A DNA stretch of 37,442 bases from Deltaproteobacteria bacterium (GTDB lineage: Bacteria > Desulfobacterota > Desulfobaccia > Desulfobaccales > 0-14-0-80-60-11). Under the pieces are notes generated by a model. It made no database searches. It was not told the DNA's origin and saw only the letters and a program-made list of their open reading frames with translations. Made by a program: the position numbers and the translations under genes. Each line of letters begins with the position of its first letter. Positions within the stretch are counted from its first letter, which is position 1. Below are positions 14,314 to 36,880 of this stretch, one piece after another. The DNA is taken from contig VGSJ01000023.1 of assembly GCA_016875015.1 (NCBI GenBank), positions 1-37,442 of the forward strand, read 5' to 3'.

Positions 14314-16470
14314 ATGAAACGCAATCTCGGTCTTACCGCCGCTTTCCGGCATGCTAAATGGCTGGCCGCCCTGGGGCTTACCCTGGCGGCTCTGACGTTG
14401 TCCCTGGTCCTGGATCTCTCCGGGGCCATCCAGCCTTACCGCCTCAAGACCCTGGATGCGCTCTTCCGCCGGGTGCCGTTGCCGGCCGCCTCGCCCCAGG
14501 TGGTGGTGGTGACGGTGGATCAGCCCGACCTGGATTTTTTCAAAAACCAGGGGGTTACCTGGCCCTGGCCCCGGCAACTCTACGCCCCCCTCATCGACTA
14601 CTGCCGGTGGGCCGGCGCCAAGGCGGTGGTCTTCGACATCCTGTTCACCGAGGCCTCGTCCTACGGCCCCGAAGACGACCAGCGGTTCGCACAGGCCGCG
14701 GCCGCGGCCGGCAACGTGGCGGCGCCGTTCTTCCTATCCCGGGAGGCCAAGCCGCCCAACCCCTCGGAAGCGGACCTGCTCAAGCAAGCCGGCCTCACCC
14801 TCCCCGGCCCTCCGCCTCTGGACCAGCCTGACTATCGGGCCGTAGTCACCCCCATCCCGCCGCTTTTGGCCGCGGCCCAGGCCCTGGGGAACGTGGAGTC
14901 CCGCCCGGACGCGGACGGCATCTACCGCCGGGTAGCCCTGGTGCTACCCTTTAAGGATAAGTGGCTCCCCACGCTCGGGTTCGCGGCGTTTCACCGCTTC
15001 GGGACTCCGGGTCCTTTACAATTCGCCCCCGGCGCCCTGAAGGTGGGGAACCTCGCCATTCCCCTGGATGGCCAGGGGCAGTTCCTCCTCAAGTTTCGCG
15101 GCCCCAGCCGCAGCCACCAGCGGTTTTCCGCGGCCAACGTCATCGCCTCGGAGGCCCGCCGCGCCCACGGCCTCCCTCCCATCTACCCGCCGGCGGATTT
15201 TGCCGGCAAATGGGTCCTGGTGGGACTCACCGCCCCGGGCCTCCTGGACCTGAAGGCCTCCCCGGTGGCCGCGGTTTATCCCGGGGTGGAGGTCCACGCC
15301 ACCTTACTGGATAACCTGCTGAGGGGCGATTTTCTCCGGCCGGCGCCCCTCTGGGGCCTGTGGGCCGGGATCCTGGTCCTCTCCGCCGCCATGGTCTTGG
15401 TCGTCCTCTTTTTCTCGGGGCTTCTGGCCACCCTGACCGGGTTAGCGGCTCTGGCCCTGGCTTACCTGGGGCTGGCCGTCGGGGCCTTCCATTTCAGCTG
15501 GTGGGTCGACCCGGTGCTGCCCGGGGTCGCGCTGGGCCTGAGCTTCACCCTGGCCGCGGCGTTCAGCTACGCCACCGAAGGTCGCCAGAAGCTCTACATC
15601 CGGCGCATGTTCGGCCAATACATGTCCGAGACCGTCATCAACCATTTGCTGGAACACCCGGAAAAACTGCAACTGGGGGGCGAACGCCGCCGGGTCACCC
15701 TATTTTTTTCGGATCTGGCCGGCTTCACCACCATCTCGGAGCGCCTCAGCCCCGAGACCGTGGTGTCCCTGCTCAACGACTATCTGTCCCGCATGACCGA
15801 GATCATCCTGGAAGAGGCGGGCACGGTGGACAAATTCGAAGGGGACGCCATCATGGCCTTCTGGGGCGCCCCCCTGGACCAACCGGACCAGGCCCCCCGG
15901 GCCTGCCGCGCCGCCCTGAGGCAGCAGGCGGCCCTGAAGGAGTTGAACCGCGGGTTTGCCGGACTGGACCTGCCGCCCCTGTCCATGCGCATCGGCCTGC
16001 ACACCGGCGACGCCATCGTGGGCAACCTGGGTTCGGCAAAGCGCTTCGACTACACCGTCATCGGCGACACCGTCAATCTGGCTTCCCGCCTGGAGGGGGT
16101 CAACAAGTTTTACGGCTCCCACATCATGGCCAGCGAGGTCACCGCGGCGGAGTGCGCCGGGGCGGTGGAGTTTCGGGAACTGGACCTGGTGGCGGTCAAG
16201 GGTAAAGAACAGGCGATCCGGGTCTTTGAGGTCCTGGGTCTCACGGGGGAATTGGCGCCGGAGATCATCAAGCGGCGCCAGGACTTCGCCCAGGCGTTGG
16301 AGCTCTACCGGCAGCGCCGCTTCCCCGAAGCCGGGGCCGCGTTCGAAGCCATCCTGACGGAAAACCCCGAAGACGGCCCCGCCCGGATTTACCGGGACCG
16401 CTGCCGGCGCCTCCAGGAGACGCCGCCGCCGGCTGACTGGGATACCGTCTTCCGACCGGAGGGGAAATAA
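14314..16470 (+). CDS. CHASE2-domain adenylate cyclase (class III)
   Basis: A 718-residue membrane enzyme predicted to make cAMP from ATP. An N-terminal membrane segment is followed by an extracytoplasmic CHASE2 sensor (about 40-335), three membrane segments (about 345-420) and a cytoplasmic class III catalytic domain. Catalytic residues are complete: metal-binding D467 and D511, adenine-selecting K507 and D579, transition-state N588 and R592. A helical tail of about 90 residues resembles a TPR-like repeat. The K/D pair argues for ATP rather than GTP. AAGGGA lies close before the ATG, next to a small CCTTG/CAAGG hairpin. The gene appears monocistronic. It is the first of two adenylate cyclases in the window. 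Confidence 0.93.
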   Translation: MKRNLGLTAAFRHAKWLAALGLTLAALTLSLVLDLSGAIQPYRLKTLDALFRRVPLPAASPQVVVVTVDQPDLDFFKNQGVTWPWPRQLYAPLIDYCRWAGAKAVVFDILFTEASSYGPEDDQRFAQAAAAAGNVAAPFFLSREAKPPNPSEADLLKQAGLTLPGPPPLDQPDYRAVVTPIPPLLAAAQALGNVESRPDADGIYRRVALVLPFKDKWLPTLGFAAFHRFGTPGPLQFAPGALKVGNLAIPLDGQGQFLLKFRGPSRSHQRFSAANVIASEARRAHGLPPIYPPADFAGKWVLVGLTAPGLLDLKASPVAAVYPGVEVHATLLDNLLRGDFLRPAPLWGLWAGILVLSAAMVLVVLFFSGLLATLTGLAALALAYLGLAVGAFHFSWWVDPVLPGVALGLSFTLAAAFSYATEGRQKLYIRRMFGQYMSETVINHLLEHPEKLQLGGERRRVTLFFSDLAGFTTISERLSPETVVSLLNDYLSRMTEIILEEAGTVDKFEGDAIMAFWGAPLDQPDQAPRACRAALRQQAALKELNRGFAGLDLPPLSMRIGLHTGDAIVGNLGSAKRFDYTVIGDTVNLASRLEGVNKFYGSHIMASEVTAAECAGAVEFRELDLVAVKGKEQAIRVFEVLGLTGELAPEIIKRRQDFAQALELYRQRRFPEAGAAFEAILTENPEDGPARIYRDRCRRLQETPPPADWDTVFRPEGK

Positions 16471-27223: not shown

Positions 27224-28378
27224 TTAGAAGCCCCGGCCCGACATGCGGGCGTGGAGCATGGCCGCGGTGCGATAGACGAAGTGGGCCAGCTTGGTGTAGG
27301 GGGCATAAAAGAACAGCATGAACACCGCGGTCAGGTGCAGGAAGTACGTGGGGTAGGCCAGAATCTGGAGGTGCATCAGGCGGAACAGCCAGGCGAGCAG
27401 ACCGGTGGCGCCCACGACAAAGATCACGTAGATCAGGAACCAGTCATAGTAGGACCCGTACCCCGCCTTTTCGGCGTTGGCCTGGCGCTCTTTAATGAGG
27501 TTCCAGATCCCATAGAGCAAAGAGGCGGTCCCTGCCATGGCCAGCAGTTTTATGGGTGACAAGAGAAAGTAAGGGGGGTCGTGATGCAACACCCACTCAT
27601 TGATGAACCCCCAGGTAGTGACTATGAGCAAAAAGATAAACCCGAACACCAGGAACAGGTGGTTGGTGGCACGGGTATAGGTGGTTTCACACGTCCGGAA
27701 GCGGTTGTGAAACAAGATATCTTTCAAAGTGGCGATGAGGTTGCACACCAGGTTGCCTTCCACTTTGACCCGCCACGGATGCGGCGCGTTGATGTCCTGC
27801 CAGAAGGCCAGCACCCCTTTGCCCAGAACCGCCACGGCAAAGAAGAAGGCGGGGACAAAGATGAAGTCCACCGCCAGGGTGGGGAAGAGTTTGGCGAAGA
27901 TGATCTTCCCTTCGGGTATGGCTATGCCCTGGTGAACCAGGTTTTCCCCCACCTTGATGCCCATGCCGCCCATAATCTTGAGCAGGAACAGCAACAAGAG
28001 CATCGGGAAGGCGATGAGCAGGGGCAGGAACTTGGGGTCTCCCACCGCCTTGGCCAACAACGGCGGCGTGGCATACTTCTCGATGGCCATCTGCCGGAGG
28101 ACGCCCAGGACCTCACCGGGATTGGCGCCCCGGGGGCAATACACGGTGCAGTCGCTGCACTGGTGGCACAGCCAGATATCCGGGGCGCTGAGCACTTCTT
28201 TCAGCCCCCACTGGGCCTGAAGCATCTCCTTCCGGGGGAAGGGTTTTTCGTCCGGGGTGAGGTTACACACCACCGAACAGGTATCACATTGATAGCACTT
28301 CTTGACCGTGTCCCCCCCGGCGGCCATCACCCGCTTCACGAATTGGAGGTCCGGTTTAATGAGAATTTCACCTGCCAT
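27224..28378 (-). CDS. qmoC: QmoC, membrane subunit of quinone-interacting oxidoreductase
   Basis: A 384-residue HdrC/HdrE-like fusion. The N-terminal part carries two [4Fe-4S] clusters (CYQCDTCSVVC near residue 28 and CHQCSDCTVYC near 71). The C-terminal two thirds have about six membrane helices of the NarI/HdrE type, expected to bind heme b and menaquinol. With QmoA and QmoB it passes electrons from the quinone pool toward AprBA. Length and domain order are normal for the family. GGAGG lies 9 bases before the ATG; the gap from qmoB is 13 bases. It is the last gene before the terminator at 27167-27196. Confidence 0.96.
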   Translation of the reverse strand: MAGEILIKPDLQFVKRVMAAGGDTVKKCYQCDTCSVVCNLTPDEKPFPRKEMLQAQWGLKEVLSAPDIWLCHQCSDCTVYCPRGANPGEVLGVLRQMAIEKYATPPLLAKAVGDPKFLPLLIAFPMLLLLFLLKIMGGMGIKVGENLVHQGIAIPEGKIIFAKLFPTLAVDFIFVPAFFFAVAVLGKGVLAFWQDINAPHPWRVKVEGNLVCNLIATLKDILFHNRFRTCETTYTRATNHLFLVFGFIFLLIVTTWGFINEWVLHHDPPYFLLSPIKLLAMAGTASLLYGIWNLIKERQANAEKAGYGSYYDWFLIYVIFVVGATGLLAWLFRLMHLQILAYPTYFLHLTAVFMLFFYAPYTKLAHFVYRTAAMLHARMSGRGF

Positions 28379-28391
28379 GGAACATTACCTC

Positions 28392-30557
28392 CTATAAACC
28401 CTTGAAGGGGTTGGGGCCGATCTCTCGCACCCGGGCCACAAAGTCGTCCAACACCTGGGGGAGTTTGTCGAACTCGGAGATGGCGATTTGGAACTGCTGC
28501 ACCCGGTCGGCTTCCAGTCCCAGCTTGTCCAGGGTTTCCGACAGCTTGGTGAGCCGGTAGGCGCACAGTTCGCTGCCCTTGGCGAAGTGGCACTGGTAGT
28601 CGTCGCCGTACTTGCAGCCCAGGAGGATCATGCCGTCCACCCCATTGTTCAGGGCGATTTTGATCCACTCCATGGCGAAGGAACCCATGCAGCGCAGCGT
28701 GAGAAACCGAATTGCGGGGTTTATCTTGAGGCGATGCACCGCGGCGGCATCCAGCGCCGGCAGGGCGTCGTTTTCGCAGATCAGGCCGATGATCCGTACC
28801 ACGAAATTCGGATCGTCCTCGTCCTCTAGTTCGGGCACGTCCACGGCCTTAATCGCGGAGCCCATGATGTCCACGTTCAGATCTTTGAAGAAGACGATGC
28901 GCTCCGGGCAGGCCCCCATGCAGGTGGCGCAGCGCCGGCAGCGGTTGATCTTGAAAAAGGGCGTGCCCTTCTCGTCTTCCTCAATGGCGCCGAAAGGACA
29001 TTCCTCGGTGCAGCGTTTACAGGAGGTGCAGCGCTGCATGAAGGGGTCCGGGAAGGTCTCATCCCAGGCCCGGGGGTGCACCGCCATCCCCGCGGCCACA
29101 TGCTCCGCGGCCTGGATGGCCTTGCAGGCGGCGCCCACGCCGTCTTCAACGGCCATGGCCATGTTCATGGGCTGGTGGACGCAGCCGGCGGCGTAGATGC
29201 CGGTCCGCCGGGTTTCGTAAGGGAAGCAGATGAAGTTGGAGTCGGCAAAACCGTTGAACAGCTCCAGATCAGGCAGATTTGGCCCCTGACGGTAGCCAAG
29301 GTTGAGCACCGGCTCGTCCGCGGTCGCGGGGACCATGCCGGTGGCCAGAACCACCAGATCGGCCTCGAAGATGACGTTCGCGCCCAGCAGGGTGTCGGTG
29401 GCGTTGATCCGCAGCTTGCCGCCGTCACCGAGACTCACTTCGGCGATCTCCGCCTTGGTGAGCATCACGCCGGGATCACTTTGCACCTGCTTGTAGAACA
29501 ACTCCGTCTGCCCCGGGGTGCGGATATCCTTGTAGAGGAGATAGGCGATGGCGTTGGGGTTCCGCTCCCGGACATACAGGGCCTGCTTCAGGGCGGCCGT
29601 GCAGCAGAAGTCGGAGCAGTAGGGGAGATGGTCCGGGTCCCGGGAACCGGCGCACTGAATGAAGGCCACCGCTTCCGGGGCTTTGCCGTCGGAGGGCCGC
29701 ACGATCTTGCCCGCTTTGGCCATCTCCTCCATCTCGATATTGGTGATCACGTCCTTGGACAAACCATAGCCCAGTTTGACGAGCTTGGTGGCGTCGTAAG
29801 GCTTCCAGCCCGCGGCCAGGACCACGGTCCCCACCCGCAGGGTCTCCACGTCGCCGCCGACGCTGATGTCGGCGTCCAACAACCCGGGCTGCCCATCGAG
29901 CTTCTCCAGGGTCGCCGCGGTCATCACCTTGATTTTCGGGTGATTCAGGACTTCCTGGATCTGCTTGAAGACCACCGGCTCCTGGAGGGTGGTGTAGGGG
30001 TAGCTGGAAGGCGTCTGCCGGTACATCCTGGCGGCGAACCCGCCCAGTTGGGCCTCTTTCTCCACCAGGACCACCTGGTAGCCGTTGTTGGCCGCTTGCA
30101 GGGCGGCGCTTAAACCCGCAGTGCCGCCGCCGATGACCAGAATGGTCTTGTCGCATTCGGTCTCGTACGGCTCCGGCAGGTCGGTCTTCTTGACGCGGGC
30201 GCAGCTCATGCGCAGGTAGTCTTCCGCCAGGGCCTGGGTTTCCTCGCTAGCGGGGTCCTGGGTCCAGGCCACCTGTTCCCGGATGTTGCAGCGCTCCACC
30301 ATGACATTGGGGAAATCGAACTCTTCGTATTTCACCCGGGGGGAGCAGGCGGCGATGACCAGGCAGTTGATCCCTTCCTGGGCGATGTCTTGGTTGATCA
30401 TCGCCAGGCCTTCGGGGCTGCACAGGATGTCGTGCTCCTGGATATGCTGAATCTTGCCTTCTTTTTTGATCACCTTGATCAGGCTCTCAAATTTGACGGC
30501 CTCAGCGATGCCGCAACCCTTACACAAATAGACACCGAATTTCTTTTCTATTTCCAT
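28392..30557 (-). CDS. qmoB: QmoB, HdrA/MvhD-like flavin and iron-sulfur subunit
   Basis: A 721-residue soluble subunit. A short N-terminal Cys motif (YLCKGCG) precedes an FAD domain with VIGGGTAGLSAAL near residue 141. Two [4Fe-4S] motifs follow (CTSCKRCTEECP and CRRCATCMGACP, about 515-560), then an MvhD-like C-terminal domain with further Cys (LLGCKYGDDYQC). This is the standard QmoB architecture, combining HdrA with MvhD. Two adjacent ATGs exist at 30560 and 30557. AGGAGG lies 2 and 5 bases away respectively, so 30557 is preferred, giving a TGATG overlap with the qmoA stop. Confidence 0.96.
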   Translation of the reverse strand: MEIEKKFGVYLCKGCGIAEAVKFESLIKVIKKEGKIQHIQEHDILCSPEGLAMINQDIAQEGINCLVIAACSPRVKYEEFDFPNVMVERCNIREQVAWTQDPASEETQALAEDYLRMSCARVKKTDLPEPYETECDKTILVIGGGTAGLSAALQAANNGYQVVLVEKEAQLGGFAARMYRQTPSSYPYTTLQEPVVFKQIQEVLNHPKIKVMTAATLEKLDGQPGLLDADISVGGDVETLRVGTVVLAAGWKPYDATKLVKLGYGLSKDVITNIEMEEMAKAGKIVRPSDGKAPEAVAFIQCAGSRDPDHLPYCSDFCCTAALKQALYVRERNPNAIAYLLYKDIRTPGQTELFYKQVQSDPGVMLTKAEIAEVSLGDGGKLRINATDTLLGANVIFEADLVVLATGMVPATADEPVLNLGYRQGPNLPDLELFNGFADSNFICFPYETRRTGIYAAGCVHQPMNMAMAVEDGVGAACKAIQAAEHVAAGMAVHPRAWDETFPDPFMQRCTSCKRCTEECPFGAIEEDEKGTPFFKINRCRRCATCMGACPERIVFFKDLNVDIMGSAIKAVDVPELEDEDDPNFVVRIIGLICENDALPALDAAAVHRLKINPAIRFLTLRCMGSFAMEWIKIALNNGVDGMILLGCKYGDDYQCHFAKGSELCAYRLTKLSETLDKLGLEADRVQQFQIAISEFDKLPQVLDDFVARVREIGPNPFKGL

Positions 30558-31816
30558 CATGACCTCCTGCCCAGGGCGATGAGACTCTTAAGGGCGGCCC
30601 CGGTGCCATCCTGCACCGACTTGGTCACATCCAGGGGGCCCTTCAAGGTTCCCACGGCGTAGACTCCCGGCGGCAACAGTTCCTGAATGACAAAGCCATC
30701 CGGGGTGTAAGACAACGGCAGGGGGAAGGGGGAGGCTTTGGTGGAGGGCACCATGCCCGCCGCCAGGACCACCAGATCGAAGACCATGCTCTGCTTGTTG
30801 CCCGTAGCGGTGTTTTCCGCCACCACCACGACGTTGTCGGTTCCGGGTTCCTGGGTGATCTTGGCCACCTTACCCCTAATCAGATGGACCTTCTCATCGT
30901 CCCGAACCTTCCAGTAAAACTGCTCATAGCGGCCCGGGGTGCGGATATCGATGTAAAAGATATAAATTTCGGCCTCCGGGTCTTGTTCCCGCACATAGGT
31001 GGCCTGCTTCAGGGAAGCCATGCAGCAGATGTAGGAACAATACGCCAGATGGTTTTCATCCCGGGAGCCGGCGCACTGCACAAAAGCCACGCGCTTGGGC
31101 GGCTGCTGGTCGCTGGTCCTGAGGATCTGGCCGCCGGTGGGGCCGTTGGACGCCGCCAGGCGCTCCATCTGCATGTTGGTGATGACGTTGGCCACTTGGC
31201 CGAACCCCAGATTGTCCATCTTGGTGGCGTCGTAGAGTTCCCAGCCGGATGCCATGATGACCGCGCCCACGTTGAAGTTCAAGGTCTTGGTGGTCATGTG
31301 CAGCTCAATGGCGTCGTAGGCGCAGGCCTCCAGGCACTTCTGGCCGCAGTCGCCGCGGCACGCGCTCTTGTCGATGACATACTGTTGGGGAAAGGCCAGA
31401 TCATAAGGCAGATAGGCCGCTTTGGTCTTGTCCAGACCGTAGTTGAAATCGTTTACCCGCCACTGGGGGCACGCTTCCGCACAGGCATGACACGCCACAC
31501 AGCGATCATTGACATAGCGGGGGTGCACCTTTACGGTGACGTCGAAATTGCCGGCGCTGCCGCTGACCTGGGTCACTTCCGCCATGGTGTAAAAGCTGAT
31601 GTTGGGATTTTCTTTGATCCGGCGAAAGTTGATTTCCAAACCGCAAGTGGGAGGGCAGAGCTTGGGGAAGTATCGGTGGAGTTGGGCAACCCGGCCGCCC
31701 AGGTAGGGGCCCGCCTCGGCGATGATCACCTGAGACCCGGCTTCCGCCGCCTCCAGGGCTGCGGTGAGGCCGCTCATGCCTCCCCCGATGACCAGAATTT
31801 TGTTATCGGCGTTCAC
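30557..31816 (-). CDS. qmoA: QmoA, HdrA-like FAD subunit
   Basis: A 419-residue flavoprotein. The N-terminal nucleotide fold KILVIGGGMSGLTAAL is followed by the HdrA-type segment YFPKLCPPTCGLE and a Cys-rich region (CVACHACAEACP; CRGDCGQKCLEAC) that may hold iron-sulfur clusters. QmoA contacts AprBA and QmoB in models of the complex. The start is GTG at 31816, with AAGGAGG 6 bases upstream. An ATG at 31837 and longer versions lack such spacing and would exceed the family length. Translation is coupled to qmoB through TGATG. A candidate promoter lies about 80 bases before the start. Confidence 0.95.
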   Translation of the reverse strand: MNADNKILVIGGGMSGLTAALEAAEAGSQVIIAEAGPYLGGRVAQLHRYFPKLCPPTCGLEINFRRIKENPNISFYTMAEVTQVSGSAGNFDVTVKVHPRYVNDRCVACHACAEACPQWRVNDFNYGLDKTKAAYLPYDLAFPQQYVIDKSACRGDCGQKCLEACAYDAIELHMTTKTLNFNVGAVIMASGWELYDATKMDNLGFGQVANVITNMQMERLAASNGPTGGQILRTSDQQPPKRVAFVQCAGSRDENHLAYCSYICCMASLKQATYVREQDPEAEIYIFYIDIRTPGRYEQFYWKVRDDEKVHLIRGKVAKITQEPGTDNVVVVAENTATGNKQSMVFDLVVLAAGMVPSTKASPFPLPLSYTPDGFVIQELLPPGVYAVGTLKGPLDVTKSVQDGTGAALKSLIALGRRS

Positions 31817-31902
31817 ACAAGTCCTCCTTGGGGACATTGAAGCGATCCAGAGCATTGGCCGGGGCTCGTCTCCGGCCCAGGCCCTGAGACCCACTTTCTC
31901 CT

Positions 31903-32069: not shown

Positions 32070-34034
32070 TTACTTAACCAGCTGTTTGTAAGGCTCAGTC
32101 TCAAACTTCCACTCGTTGGTGTTCTTGTCATACTGAGAAATGGTGAACACCCTCCACTTGCTGTCATCGATTTTCAGGAAGTCAGAGCGGTAGTAGTAAC
32201 CGGGATAACGGGTCTCTTTCCTGAACAGGATATGCCGCAGGTGGGCCTCACCGGAGAGAATCCGGTGATACTGTTCCCAGGCCCGCATCAATTCGTGCAG
32301 GTCTGGCGCGGCCAACCGGGTCGCGTCTTCCTTCAGCATGGTGAGGCGCTTCAGGCCTTCGTTCAGCATGATTTCGTTGGTCTGGTACATGGTGGAGCAA
32401 CCCGCGACATACTCGTCCATCAGCTTCTGCAAGCGGGTCTGGACGTGCTTGGGCAGCAGGTAGTTGGGGTTGATCTCCGGCGCGGTGGTGTAGCCCTTGT
32501 ACTTCTCGTAGATCTCGAAGGGCAGGTAGATCTCGGCGATGACCTCGTCGATGTTCTGCGCCGCTTCCAGCTTGTCGTTCTTGTGGTCCAGGATGAAGGC
32601 CAGGGCGCCCTTGGCGGCCATGCGGCCCTCAGCGTGGGACCCGGAGGAGAACTTGTGCCCGGAGGCGCCCACGCCGTCACCGGCGGTGAACAGACCTTCA
32701 ACGGTGGTCATGCGGTCATAGCCCCAGAACCAGCTGTCCGGCGCGCCCATGTAGTTCTTGGAGGGACCGGAGACCCACAGACCGGCGCAGCCGGCGTGCG
32801 AACCGAGCAGGTACGGCTCGGAGGGGATGATTTCCGACGGCACCTTGTCGGGCTCCATGTTGAAGGAGGCCCACAGGCAGGCGGCGGAGATGGACATATC
32901 CAGGAAGTCTTCCCAGGCTTCAGCTTCCAGATGCTTGAGCTCTTTCTTGGAGAGCGTCTCGGCCAGTTTCTGCATGGCCTTGTCGGTGTGCATCATGATG
33001 GGGCCGCGGCCTGCCCGCATTTCCATCATGGCGGCATGGTTCCGCAGGCAGGTGCCCGGGGCATCAGCGTAGCCGGGATACTCTTCCTTGACCTTATCCC
33101 AGTTCTTGGCCATATAGTCTTCGCCGTAAGCGTTGGTGGCCTGGGCCTTGAAGAACAGGAACCAGGCGCCGACCGGGCCGTAACCGTCTTTAAACCGGGC
33201 CGGAACGAAACGGTTTTCCATCAGCACCATCTTGGCGCCGATTTCCGCGGGCATGGCGTAGGTGGAGCCGGCGTTCCATACGGGGTACCAGGCGCGACCC
33301 TGGCCTTCACCCACCGACCGGGGCCGGAAGACGTTGACCACGCCGCCGCAGGCCACGATCATGGCCTTGCATTTGAAGACATAGGTCTTGTGCTCACGGA
33401 CGCTGAAGCCCACCGCCCCGCAGACGCGGTTGCTGTTCTTCTTGTCGGTCAACAGCTTGACGATGAACACGCGCTCGTAGATGTTTTCCATCCCCAGGGC
33501 GTTCTTGGCGGCTTCCGCCACGATCACCTTGTAGGACTCACCGTTGATCATGCACTGCCATTTACCGGAGCGGCAGCATTTGCCGCCGTCTTTCAGCAGC
33601 GGCAGGCCTTCGTCTCTGGCCACCTGGCCGTCCACGGTGTGGTTTTCATTGTCTTTCTGCCAGATGGGCAGGCCCCAATCCTGGAAGTCATGCACGGACT
33701 GGTCGACGTGGGCGCCCACGCTGTGGACCAGGTCTTCCCGGATGATGCCCATGAGGTCAGTGCGCACCATGCCCACATAGTCAGCTATTTTGTTTTCCGC
33801 CCCGACATAGGTGTTGATGGCGGACAGACCCATGGCTACCGCGCCGGAACGATCCAGGGCGGCTTTGTCAACCAGGGTGACCTTCAGCCCGGTCGCTTTG
33901 GCCCACGCCATAGCTTCAACCGCGGCGCCGGTGCAAGCCATACCGCCGCCCACCAGCAGCAGGTCGGTTTCAACGGTGACGACTTCCGGTTTCGCACAAA
34001 AAGACCATTTACAGAATTCTCTTTCCAGAGCCAT
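32070..34034 (-). CDS. aprA: AprA, adenosine-5'-phosphosulfate reductase alpha subunit
   Basis: A 654-residue FAD subunit of dissimilatory APS reductase, which reduces APS to sulfite and AMP in the cytoplasm. The N-terminus has the FAD-binding GGGMACTGAA after TDLLLV, followed by the family signature SGAVAMGLSAINTY. Segments such as GQGRAWYPVWNAGSTYAMP and SSGSHAEGRMAAKGA are characteristic. Length matches the family (about 650-665). It lies 38 bases after aprB, with GGAGG 11 bases before the ATG. Tandem terminators follow within 20 bases. No inactivating change is seen. Confidence 0.98.
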   Translation of the reverse strand: MALEREFCKWSFCAKPEVVTVETDLLLVGGGMACTGAAVEAMAWAKATGLKVTLVDKAALDRSGAVAMGLSAINTYVGAENKIADYVGMVRTDLMGIIREDLVHSVGAHVDQSVHDFQDWGLPIWQKDNENHTVDGQVARDEGLPLLKDGGKCCRSGKWQCMINGESYKVIVAEAAKNALGMENIYERVFIVKLLTDKKNSNRVCGAVGFSVREHKTYVFKCKAMIVACGGVVNVFRPRSVGEGQGRAWYPVWNAGSTYAMPAEIGAKMVLMENRFVPARFKDGYGPVGAWFLFFKAQATNAYGEDYMAKNWDKVKEEYPGYADAPGTCLRNHAAMMEMRAGRGPIMMHTDKAMQKLAETLSKKELKHLEAEAWEDFLDMSISAACLWASFNMEPDKVPSEIIPSEPYLLGSHAGCAGLWVSGPSKNYMGAPDSWFWGYDRMTTVEGLFTAGDGVGASGHKFSSGSHAEGRMAAKGALAFILDHKNDKLEAAQNIDEVIAEIYLPFEIYEKYKGYTTAPEINPNYLLPKHVQTRLQKLMDEYVAGCSTMYQTNEIMLNEGLKRLTMLKEDATRLAAPDLHELMRAWEQYHRILSGEAHLRHILFRKETRYPGYYYRSDFLKIDDSKWRVFTISQYDKNTNEWKFETEPYKQLVK

Positions 34035-34072: not shown

Positions 34073-34498
34073 CTACTCGGTGCGCGCCGGGCCGGTGTAG
34101 AAACCGGGTTTCTTAAGATCCGCCAAGTCGCTGGGCAGGGTAAAGCCCTTGAAGCAATCAATGGTACCTTCCGGCGTGGTGCGGACTGGGAACTTGAACC
34201 GCTTCACCGTCTTCTGATTCCGGAACTTGATGGTCCAGGTGATATCGTTGCTGGACCGCATGGGGATGGTGCTGGAGCCGAGAGGCATGATATCCGCATA
34301 GTGGCGGACTTCAATGGCCTGCACGGGGCAGATCTTCACGCAGTTGTAGCATTCCCAGCACTGTTCCGGCTCCTGGTTGAAAGCCTTCTTTTGTACGGGT
34401 TCCAGGACCATCAGGTCATTGGGGCAGATGTACTGACAAGCGGTCTTGTCCAGGGCTTTACAGCCGTCACATTTTTCCACGATTACGAAACTCGGCAT
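34073..34498 (-). CDS. aprB: AprB, adenosine-5'-phosphosulfate reductase beta subunit
   Basis: A 141-residue iron-sulfur subunit that carries electrons to the AprA flavin. Two [4Fe-4S] motifs are visible: CDGCKALDKTACQYICP near the N-terminus (with the insertion typical of AprB) and CWECYNCVKICP. The C-terminal tail, which wraps around AprA in known structures, is present. The ATG at 34498 is chosen because GAGGAGG lies 9 bases upstream and the product starts MPSFVIVEKCDGC as in other AprB; the longer open frame is not credible. The 103-base gap to sat has a GGCGG/CCGCC hairpin but no T-run, so sat-aprBA is probably one transcript. Confidence 0.97.
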   Translation of the reverse strand: MPSFVIVEKCDGCKALDKTACQYICPNDLMVLEPVQKKAFNQEPEQCWECYNCVKICPVQAIEVRHYADIMPLGSSTIPMRSSNDITWTIKFRNQKTVKRFKFPVRTTPEGTIDCFKGFTLPSDLADLKKPGFYTGPARTE

Positions 34499-34601
34499 AA
34501 CGTAAAACCTCCTCATTAGGGTTAAGCAGTTATCTTCAATATACCTGCATCGCGTGGCGGGAGGCGGAAGCGACTGCCGCCCCGGCACCACCTTACTCTG
34601 C

Positions 34602-35831
34602 CTACTTTTTCCCGGGGATGTCCCCGGTGGCGAAGCCGTGGACCTTGACTTCCACTTTCTCGGTCAGGCCCCGGTAGTACTTCCGCAGCACGGTCAGGAC
34701 TTCGGGCCGGCTAAAGTGATCCGGCACTTCCATGTCTTCGGAGAGCATCTTCCGCAGCATGGTGCCGCTGAGCATCAGCCGGTCTTCCTTGCCGTGGCAG
34801 CAGGTCCGCATGGAGGCCATGCCGTCGCACTTGAAGCAGTAGAAGGTCCAGTCGATGTTCAGGGGTTTGAGCTCCAGGGCGTCTTTCGGAATCTGGAGGA
34901 AGATCTTCTGGGCGTCGAAGGGGCCGTAGTATTCGCCCACGCCGGCGTGGTCCCGGCCGACGATCAGGTGGGAGCAGCCGAAGTTCTGGCGGAACACCGC
35001 GTGGAACAGGGCTTCCCGGGGACCGGCATAGCGCATATCCAGGGGATAGCCGGACTGGATGCTGGTGTCTTTCACGAAGTAATGCTGGGTGAGGACGTTG
35101 ATGGCCTCGGTGCGCACTTCCGCGGGGATGTCGCCGGGTTTCAGTTTGCCCAGGAGCTGATGGATCAGGATGCCGTCGCAGACCTCGATGGCGATCTTGG
35201 CCAGGTACTCGTGGGAGCGGTGCATGGGGTTCCGGAGCTGCAGGGCGGCGATGGTTTCCCATCCCTTGTCCTCAAACATCTTCCGGGTTTCCCAGGGCCG
35301 CATGTAGAGGCCGGGATACTGTTTCGGGAAGGGGCCTTCACTCCAAGCCTTGACGGCGCCCCCCAGGTTGACCTCCTCCTGGCCCATGACCATCTGCACG
35401 CCCGGGTGGTCCATGTCATCGGTGGTGAAGACCTCTTTGCATTCCCACTTTTTGTCGATTTTGTACTTATCGGTGACCTTCATGGTCCCCATCATCTCTT
35501 CCGTCTCTTCGTCCACCAGGAGGACTTCCTGGCCGATCTTGATGGAGTCGGCCTTGCCCTGGTTGACGGACATGGTGACGGGGATGGGCCAGAAGGTGCC
35601 ATCGGTGAGTTTCATGTCGCCGACGGAGCCTTTCCAGTTTTTCTGGTCCATGAAGCCATCCAGGGGGGTGAAGCCGCCGATGCCCATCATGATGAGGTCG
35701 GCCGTTTCCCGGGAGGTCAGAGTGACCACGGTGAGTTCCTTGGCCCGCTTTTTCTCTTCGGCCACCTGGGCCGGGGAAAGCAGCAAGGGTTTTAATTTCT
35801 TCTCTTTACCAAGCGGATTTACTAAAGCCAT
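34602..35831 (-). CDS. sat: Sat, dissimilatory ATP sulfurylase
   Basis: A 409-residue sulfate adenylyltransferase that activates sulfate to APS. Active-site motifs are [11 protein letters not shown] near residue 200 and GRDHAGVG near 290. A Cys cluster ([18 protein letters not shown]) near 340 matches the zinc site of homologues in sulfate reducers. There is no C-terminal APS-kinase domain, as expected for the dissimilatory type. GAGGAGG lies 7 bases before the ATG. It is the first gene of sat-aprBA; the 179-base upstream gap holds a candidate sigma-70 promoter and a CRP/FNR-type palindrome. Confidence 0.98.
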
Positions 35832-35892: not shown

Positions 35893-35908
35893 TGTGAAAT
35901 ATTTCACA
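35893..35908 (-). promoter_or_regulatory. CRP/FNR-family operator (HcpR-like) in the sat leader
   Basis: TGTGAAATATTTCACA is a perfect 16-base palindrome of the form TGTGA-N6-TCACA, flanked on the plus strand by T before and T after (TTGTGA-N6-TCACAT). This is the canonical CRP half-site pair, and HcpR of sulfate reducers is reported to use a near-identical TTGTGA-N6-TCACAA motif. Relative to the promoter proposed at 35925-35953 it lies about +10 to +25, a position typical of repression. Confidence 0.7.
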
Positions 35909-35924: not shown

Positions 35925-35953
35925 ACGATAAATCATCTCTCAAGGCTTGTCAA
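35925..35953 (-). promoter_or_regulatory. Candidate sigma-70 promoter for sat-aprBA
   Basis: Minus strand TTGACA (35953-35948), an exact 17-base spacer and TATCGT (35930-35925). The -35 is perfect and the -10 matches four of six. The predicted start is near 35918, giving a leader of about 87 bases that contains the palindrome at 35893-35908. Confidence 0.55.
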
Positions 35954-36010: not shown

Positions 36011-36880
36011 TCAAGCGTTGAGACGATAGGCGATCGTGGGTTCTTGGCGACCCCGCAACACTACCGCCGACTCGGGCGTAGCCTTAAACTGCCCCTCCAG
36101 GGCCCGGAAAGTGGCCTCGCTGATCAGGGTGTCGGCTTCCACCTCTTTGGCCAGTTCCTGGAGCCGGGCCGCCACGTTGACCGCGTCCCCCACCACGGTG
36201 AAGTCCATGCGCTTGTTGGAGCCGATGTTGCCGACGATGGCCTCCCCGGTGTTGATGCCGATGCGCATTCCCTGGATGGGAGTCTGGCCCGCGGCTTGCA
36301 TCTGCCTCAAATGGCGCTGCATGGCCAGGGCGCATTCCACCGCATGGTTGGCCGCCTGGGGCAGCGGCAGCGGCACCCCGAACACCGCCATCAGGGCGTC
36401 CCCCACAAATTTATCCAGGGTCCCCTGATATTTAAAGACCAGATCCACCATCTCGGTAAAGTAGGTGTTGAGCACCTCCACCACGGCCTCCGGGGCCATG
36501 GATTCCGACAGGGTGGTGAAATTGCGGATATCGGCAAAGAGGACCGTCACTATCTGGCGCCGCCCTCCCAAGGCCAGCAGCCCCGGATTCCTCAAGATCT
36601 CTTCGCACAACTCCGGACTCACATAACGGGAAAAGGTGTCCCGGAGCACGTGCCGCTCCTGGTAGAGGCGCAGGCGGCTCCGCAAGGACGCCTCGTGGCT
36701 GGCCTCTTCCATGGCGATTTCTTTGAGGAGGGTCTTGAGCTCCGGATCGTCGGTCTCCTGGGACAGGGACAGGTAGCTCTTCCGGGCCTCGTTTTCGTGG
36801 GCGATGGCCAGTTCGATAGCCTGAATAATATTCAGTTCGGGTTTGGACTCGACGTCGGGTTGGGGTCGCTCGGCTTCCAT
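36011..36880 (-). CDS. Adenylate cyclase fused to a two-helix rubrerythrin/ferritin-like domain
   Basis: A 289-residue soluble protein. Residues 17-74 form two helices with the half-rubrerythrin pattern: E29 in E-x-x-A-R-x-x-Y (Y36) and E59-x-x-H62, the ligand set used for one half of a diiron site. A linker helix (83-96, SRYVSPELCEEIL) precedes a class III cyclase. Catalytic residues are complete: D117 and D161 for metal, K157 and D226 for adenine, N235 and R239 for the transition state. Cyclases dimerise, so two half-sites could build a diiron centre, as in encapsulated ferritins. Cyclic AMP formation gated by iron, oxygen or redox state is inferred. AAGGA precedes the ATG. The next gene on the strand is sat. 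Confidence 0.88.
   Translation of the reverse strand: MEAERPQPDVESKPELNIIQAIELAIAHENEARKSYLSLSQETDDPELKTLLKEIAMEEASHEASLRSRLRLYQERHVLRDTFSRYVSPELCEEILRNPGLLALGGRRQIVTVLFADIRNFTTLSESMAPEAVVEVLNTYFTEMVDLVFKYQGTLDKFVGDALMAVFGVPLPLPQAANHAVECALAMQRHLRQMQAAGQTPIQGMRIGINTGEAIVGNIGSNKRMDFTVVGDAVNVAARLQELAKEVEADTLISEATFRALEGQFKATPESAVVLRGRQEPTIAYRLNA

Follow-up and report, generated by a model that had tools for sequence, protein, structure and literature searches.

An adenylate cyclase with an encapsulated-ferritin-like half-site from Desulfobaccales: a candidate iron or oxygen sensor of a new kind

We analysed a 37,442-nucleotide stretch of contig VGSJ01000023.1 (hereafter the window) and found that it encodes a protein joining a two-helix half-ferritin to a class III adenylate cyclase, a fusion with the look of a novel iron or oxygen sensor in a sulfate-reducing bacterium. 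In bacterial signalling, the non-haem diiron sensors known so far are chiefly hemerythrin domains, and Vibrio cholerae Bhr-DGC and Desulfovibrio vulgaris DcrH likewise carry a non-haem diiron input on a signalling output, which includes a nucleotide cyclase (PMC9388753). Signalling enzymes controlled by diiron domains are thus already known, and the novelty lies in the half-ferritin input domain: hemerythrin sensors hold a complete, His-rich four-helix fold in one chain, whereas the fusion protein has a Glu-rich ferritin half-site, and its output is a class III cAMP cyclase instead of the GGDEF domain of Bhr-DGC. No ferritin-type sensor fusion was found in the open-access literature searched. 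If the proposal is true and two chains together complete a ferritin half-site, sensing would be the act of assembly itself, and cAMP would be tied to the iron or oxygen status of obligate anaerobes, where cAMP signalling is little understood. The features of the gene are as follows.

36011..36880 (-): half-ferritin/adenylate cyclase fusion gene, 289 aa by translation
36659..36832 (-): two-helix ferritin-like domain, residues 17-74 (helices 18-42 and 46-74), from PF02915, EncB_fam, the structure model and Foldseek
36794..36796 (-): E29, putative Fe ligand (EncFtn E32), invariant in 29/29 with GAA and GAG codons, aligned with the Glu of EncB and Pyrococcus furiosus EncFtn
36773..36775 (-): Y36 (EncFtn Y39), invariant in 29/29, TAC and TAT
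36704..36706 (-): E59, putative bridging ligand (EncFtn E62), invariant in 29/29, GAG and GAA
36695..36697 (-): H62, putative ligand (EncFtn H65), invariant in 29/29, CAC and CAT
36557..36658 (-): coupling segment, residues 75-108, a short helix (76-83) followed by a transducer-like RYVSP...GGRR element
36014..36556 (-): class III (IIIb-type) adenylate cyclase catalytic domain, residues 109-289, from PF00211, CyaB 3r5g and conserved catalytic residues

A two-helix ferritin-like domain joined to a class III cyclase

Translation confirmed the two motifs read by the first-pass annotation; helix 18-42 carries E29-x-x-A32-R33-x-x-Y36, and helix 46-74 carries E59-x-x-H62. Pfam Rubrerythrin (PF02915) matched residues 17-67 with 27.4 bits (cut-off 22.8), and the match covered profile positions 84-134, corresponding to one repeat; the fusion protein does not have the four helices and two motifs that would make up a full diiron domain in a single chain, and Pfam gave no hemerythrin match. 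The fusion protein therefore matches the rubrerythrins and other two-repeat ferritin-like proteins of PF02915 above the cut-off with half of the diiron motif, but it has one E...ExxH repeat of two, lacks a rubredoxin domain and spaces its ligands by 30 residues. The spacing in rubrerythrins and two-repeat ferritin-like proteins is approximately 33 residues.

The best NCBIfam models for the N-terminal part were EncB_fam (E 1.6e-9) and TIGR04535 (E 2.4e-7), and the cut-offs of both full-length families were missed (37.8 vs 90 bits and 30.7 vs 125 bits, respectively). Judged by its sequence, this part is a domain homologous to encapsulated ferritin and not a member of the family. The EncFtn/EncB proteins (Rhodospirillum rubrum 5da5; P. 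furiosus 5n5e; Myxococcus xanthus EncB/EncC 7s5c, 7s8t; TIGR04535, NF058679) are two-helix half-ferritins with E, Y and E-x-x-H at identical spacing, and they are the top sequence and fold matches of the fusion N-terminus. The fusion protein shares their two-helix fold and E, Y and ExxH ligands at EncFtn spacing but falls below the full-length family cut-offs and carries the cyclase at the C-terminal position where the encapsulin cargo (localisation) tail would be.

Run against solved structures, a profile built from 21 homologous N-termini matched P. furiosus 2fzf (E 9e-9), EncFtn 5n5e (2e-4) and EncB 7s5k (5.5e-4). The EncFtn and EncB alignments had no gaps, and E29, Y36, E59 and H62 landed on E, Y, E and H. 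The iron ligands of R. rubrum EncFtn are E32, E62 and H65, with Y39 (PMC5012862), giving a ligand spacing (0/+7/+30/+33) identical to that of the fusion protein. The chance expectation for E-x6-Y-x22-E-x2-H, given the composition of the first 100 residues, was approximately 0.002, and the pattern was missing from the two paralogues with readable frames (L004 and L005). In the same genome, a further match to the cyclase (L007) is broken by a TGA and is possibly a broken gene.

The model of the N-terminal 97 residues had a pLDDT of 88 overall and 97-98 across residues 21-70, with helices at 18-42 and 46-74 and, after a break, at 76-83 and 89-96. In a Foldseek search against the PDB, EncB 7s5c was the top match (0.5 Å over 58 columns, TM 0.91 on the target), followed by EncFtn, EncC, sulerythrin and the four-helix-bundle model 1mft; the E-values were weak (0.1-1), as expected of a short hairpin, and the probability was near 1. 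The first-pass annotation had proposed half of a rubrerythrin/ferritin site, which can now be specified as the encapsulated-ferritin kind of two-helix half-ferritin; its ligands are kept order-wide and its confident hairpin superposes on EncB. Several tests thus support a genuine half-ferritin.

The catalytic domain matched Guanylate_cyc (PF00211) over residues 109-286 with E 4.6e-32 and 111.5 bits (cut-off 21.9), and Pseudomonas aeruginosa CyaB 3r5g (1.4e-34), which was used for residue alignment. All six catalytic residues claimed at first reading were present and were kept in all full-length homologues: D117 and D161 (metal), K157 and T228 (adenine), and N235 and R239 (transition state). 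T228 stands in place of Asp, which we take to be the class IIIb version of adenylate cyclases. We read the fusion protein as a class IIIb adenylate cyclase, soluble and with a half-ferritin input, that is predicted to synthesize cAMP. Its catalytic domain and residues are like those of the class IIIb cyclases P. aeruginosa CyaB (3r5g), Anabaena CyaB1 (2w01) and Spirulina CyaC (1wc0), from which it differs in the input domain. The transducer-like RYVSP...GGRR segment is common to the fusion protein and the other class III cyclase of the window (14314-16470, forward strand), which by eye has a CHASE2-like extracellular part.

Conservation, distribution and half-ferritin histidine kinases

E29, Y36, E59 and H62 were invariant in 29 distinct homologues with both synonymous codons in use, as in the H62 codon (CAC in 16, CAT in 13), and loss of these residues among homologues, named at first reading as the observation that would count against the site, was not seen for E29, E59 or H62. 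A chance pattern or recent artefact was ruled out by this conservation with synonymous drift. Mean pairwise identity across the 29 sequences was 78% in the sensor and 65% in the cyclase. Helix 2 was invariant at 19 of its 30 positions, and because it is conserved overall, the invariance of the ligands supports metal binding but does not prove it.

One copy of the fusion was present in all 22 near-complete Desulfobaccales genomes searched, and 28 of the 29 genomes of the order carried it overall. In a phylum sample searched at E 1e-8, the fusion occurred in 19 of 395 genomes, all Desulfobaccales but one, a 76%-complete MAG; we take Desulfobaccales to be the order that carries it. When genome contigs were scanned with fixed peptide patterns, the matches were limited to four close relatives. 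In the plasmid collection, the N-terminal 97 residues alone gave no match, and the full protein matched cyclases with less than 60% identity.

Elsewhere in the phylum, in a different order, three of ten genomes (G109, G278 and G074) encode a soluble histidine kinase headed by the same half-ferritin with identical ligand spacing, with HisKA, HATPase_c and Rubrerythrin all above cut-off.

L110, 706-1740 (-): half-ferritin histidine kinase
L111, 1318-2517 (+): half-ferritin histidine kinase
L112, 1492-2514 (+): half-ferritin histidine kinase

These kinases share the N-terminal half-ferritin and ligand spacing of the cyclase fusion and differ in their HisKA/HATPase output and in belonging to another order. 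They have apparently not been described before. Since the same half-ferritin stands on a histidine kinase in three genomes, it recurs as an input module, and this recurrence is the strongest hint of a sensory role. The kinase fusions also suggest that a whole domain class has been overlooked because annotation reads simply "rubrerythrin". The kinase genes adjoin a flavodoxin/ArsC-like fusion gene.

Assembly between chains and its alternatives

The reading that we favour, to which we give about an even chance, is that a diiron half-site completed between chains gates the cyclase output. Two half-sites from two chains would come together around iron in the manner of encapsulated ferritins. How far the shared site is loaded, or its redox state, would then change the hold on the cyclase halves and thereby alter cAMP output. 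The signal would be either the supply of Fe2+ or an oxidation, by O2 or by peroxide, and the protein would act as a direct iron-, oxygen- or peroxide-to-cAMP converter. Two precedents favour this reading, namely the metal-dependent assembly of EncFtn (PMC5012862) and the hemerythrin protein Bhr-DGC for diiron control of a nucleotide cyclase (PMC9388753). It is further favoured by the family models, the EncFtn spacing, the invariant ligands, the hairpin match, the kinase fusions and retention across the order, and weakened by the weak Foldseek E-values, the 19/30 invariant positions of helix 2, the poor full-length model and the antiparallel geometry.

Class III cyclase dimers are fed by parallel input helices. 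The EncFtn diiron dimer, in contrast, is an antiparallel four-helix bundle (PMC5012862), so that in such a dimer the helix 2 ends would lie approximately 14 residues (~20 Å) away from the site and point opposite ways in the two chains. The first-pass annotation had suggested that the iron site could lie over the cyclase dimer axis, which is unsupported as stated; given this geometry, such a placement would need a fold-back at residue 75, or the site would join different cyclase dimers. Residue 75 is a helix break in the domain model but lies within a continuous helix (46-84) in the weaker full-length AlphaFold model, which was poor (pLDDT 56, pTM 0.35) and too weak to judge sensor-cyclase coupling. 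The break could allow a fold-back that brings the cyclases together, or the iron site could link neighbouring dimers into a higher oligomer.

The main rival to between-chain gating is that the hairpin, though it descends from a two-helix ferritin, has a purely structural part in dimerisation or coupling, is metal-free and senses nothing, or is acted on by another input. We consider this unlikely, though it is the alternative that survives best: the invariance of helix 2 and of the LRSRLRLY segment equals that of the ligands, which suggests that packing or coupling constrains them, but in residues 27-44, the second half of helix 1, the sole invariant residues (alignment A1) are E29, A32, Y36 and L37, two of which are diiron residues, and the four ligand positions are common to iron-binding EncB/EncFtn and the histidine kinase fusions. 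Somewhat less probable still is a site that binds Mn, Zn or mononuclear Fe and serves as a sensor of metal availability rather than of O2 or redox state. E/E/H ligand sets bind several metals, the EncFtn crystal sites hold Ca2+ and a Mn-bound rubrerythrin structure exists; the closest relatives, however, are the ferroxidase-type EncFtn/EncB.

We regard as improbable that the ferritin-like half is a ferroxidase or peroxidase enzyme merely co-localised with the cyclase, with no signalling between the two. EncFtn does show ferroxidase activity (PMC5012862), but approximately six residues alone separate helix 2 of the half-ferritin from the conserved transducer-like element, and the parallel histidine kinase fusion suggests a sensory role. 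Least probable of all is a heteromeric site completed by another ferritin-like protein, so that the cyclase would report ferritin or rubrerythrin status, for although further rubrerythrin/ferritin-like proteins, several in number, are encoded in the genome, conserved neighbours of the cyclase included no ferritin-like gene that was seen, and EncFtn assembly is homomeric as a rule.

Between-chain gating may extend beyond the cyclase. It is slightly short of an even prospect that the half-ferritin is a reusable input domain, set on a cyclase in Desulfobaccales and on a histidine kinase in the other order. Iron would then complete a diiron site between chains, possibly those of neighbouring cyclase dimers, and so switch the second-messenger or phosphoryl output, which would make the domain a new class of non-haem iron sensor.

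The sat locus

The cyclase gene had been placed beside sat at first reading, and sat indeed lies on the same strand, its start 179 bp downstream of the cyclase gene.

34602..35831 (-): sat (ATP sulfurylase) ORF; the order cyclase-sat-(apr-qmo) is kept in relatives
34073-34591, 32070-34034 and 27224-31894: aprB, aprA and qmoA/B/C, respectively, after sat
35925..35953 (-): sigma-70-type sat promoter TTGACA-N17-TATCGT, between the cyclase gene and sat
35893..35908 (no strand): palindrome TGTGAAATATTTCACA, probable Rex operator, just downstream of the -10 of the sat promoter

The cyclase gene was directly upstream of sat on the same strand in all 17 genomes of the window family with enough contig, and aprBA and qmoABC often came next after sat in these loci; in a second family, no sat was present within the ~6 kb fetched on either side of the cyclase. 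TTGACA with an aligned -10 stood at the promoter position in 18 of the 18 loci compared. Behind the same cyclase and promoter, different genera have two sat subfamilies, the ~410-aa window type and a 425-aa type (L086-L102), as though the gene had been exchanged in situ.

The exact palindrome TGTGA-N6-TCACA was present in the window and 11 further sat-adjacent relatives and degenerate in five. The full site, TGTGAA-N4-TTCACA, agrees with the Rex consensus TTGTGAAW4TTCACAA (PMC2883068), and the window organism has a Rex gene in its own genome. Rex represses sat in D. vulgaris, according to a citation of Christensen et al. 2014 in PMC11451228. Given the Rex-type site, the Rex gene and this repression, sat control looks independent of the cyclase. 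HcpR has been predicted at sat in Desulfovibrio (PMC545781), but the same three points favour Rex. A cAMP-CRP site fed by the cyclase was rejected, since the search of the genome gave a single Crp-type transcription factor (L072/L144), a 255-aa CRP/FNR protein that resembles HcpR and has Ser at the position of CRP Arg180 and lacks the Arg that binds the cAMP phosphate. This phosphate-binding Arg is retained in three cNMP-binding proteins (L073, L074 and L075), none of which is a transcription factor, so cAMP probably acts elsewhere.

Exact palindromes also occur elsewhere in the genome, ahead of a multihaem cytochrome-like gene (L107) and of a CooC-like/CODH-ACS-like gene pair (L109). At the contig end (37330-37442, forward strand), the start of an ORF resembles, by eye, an IS4-type transposase.
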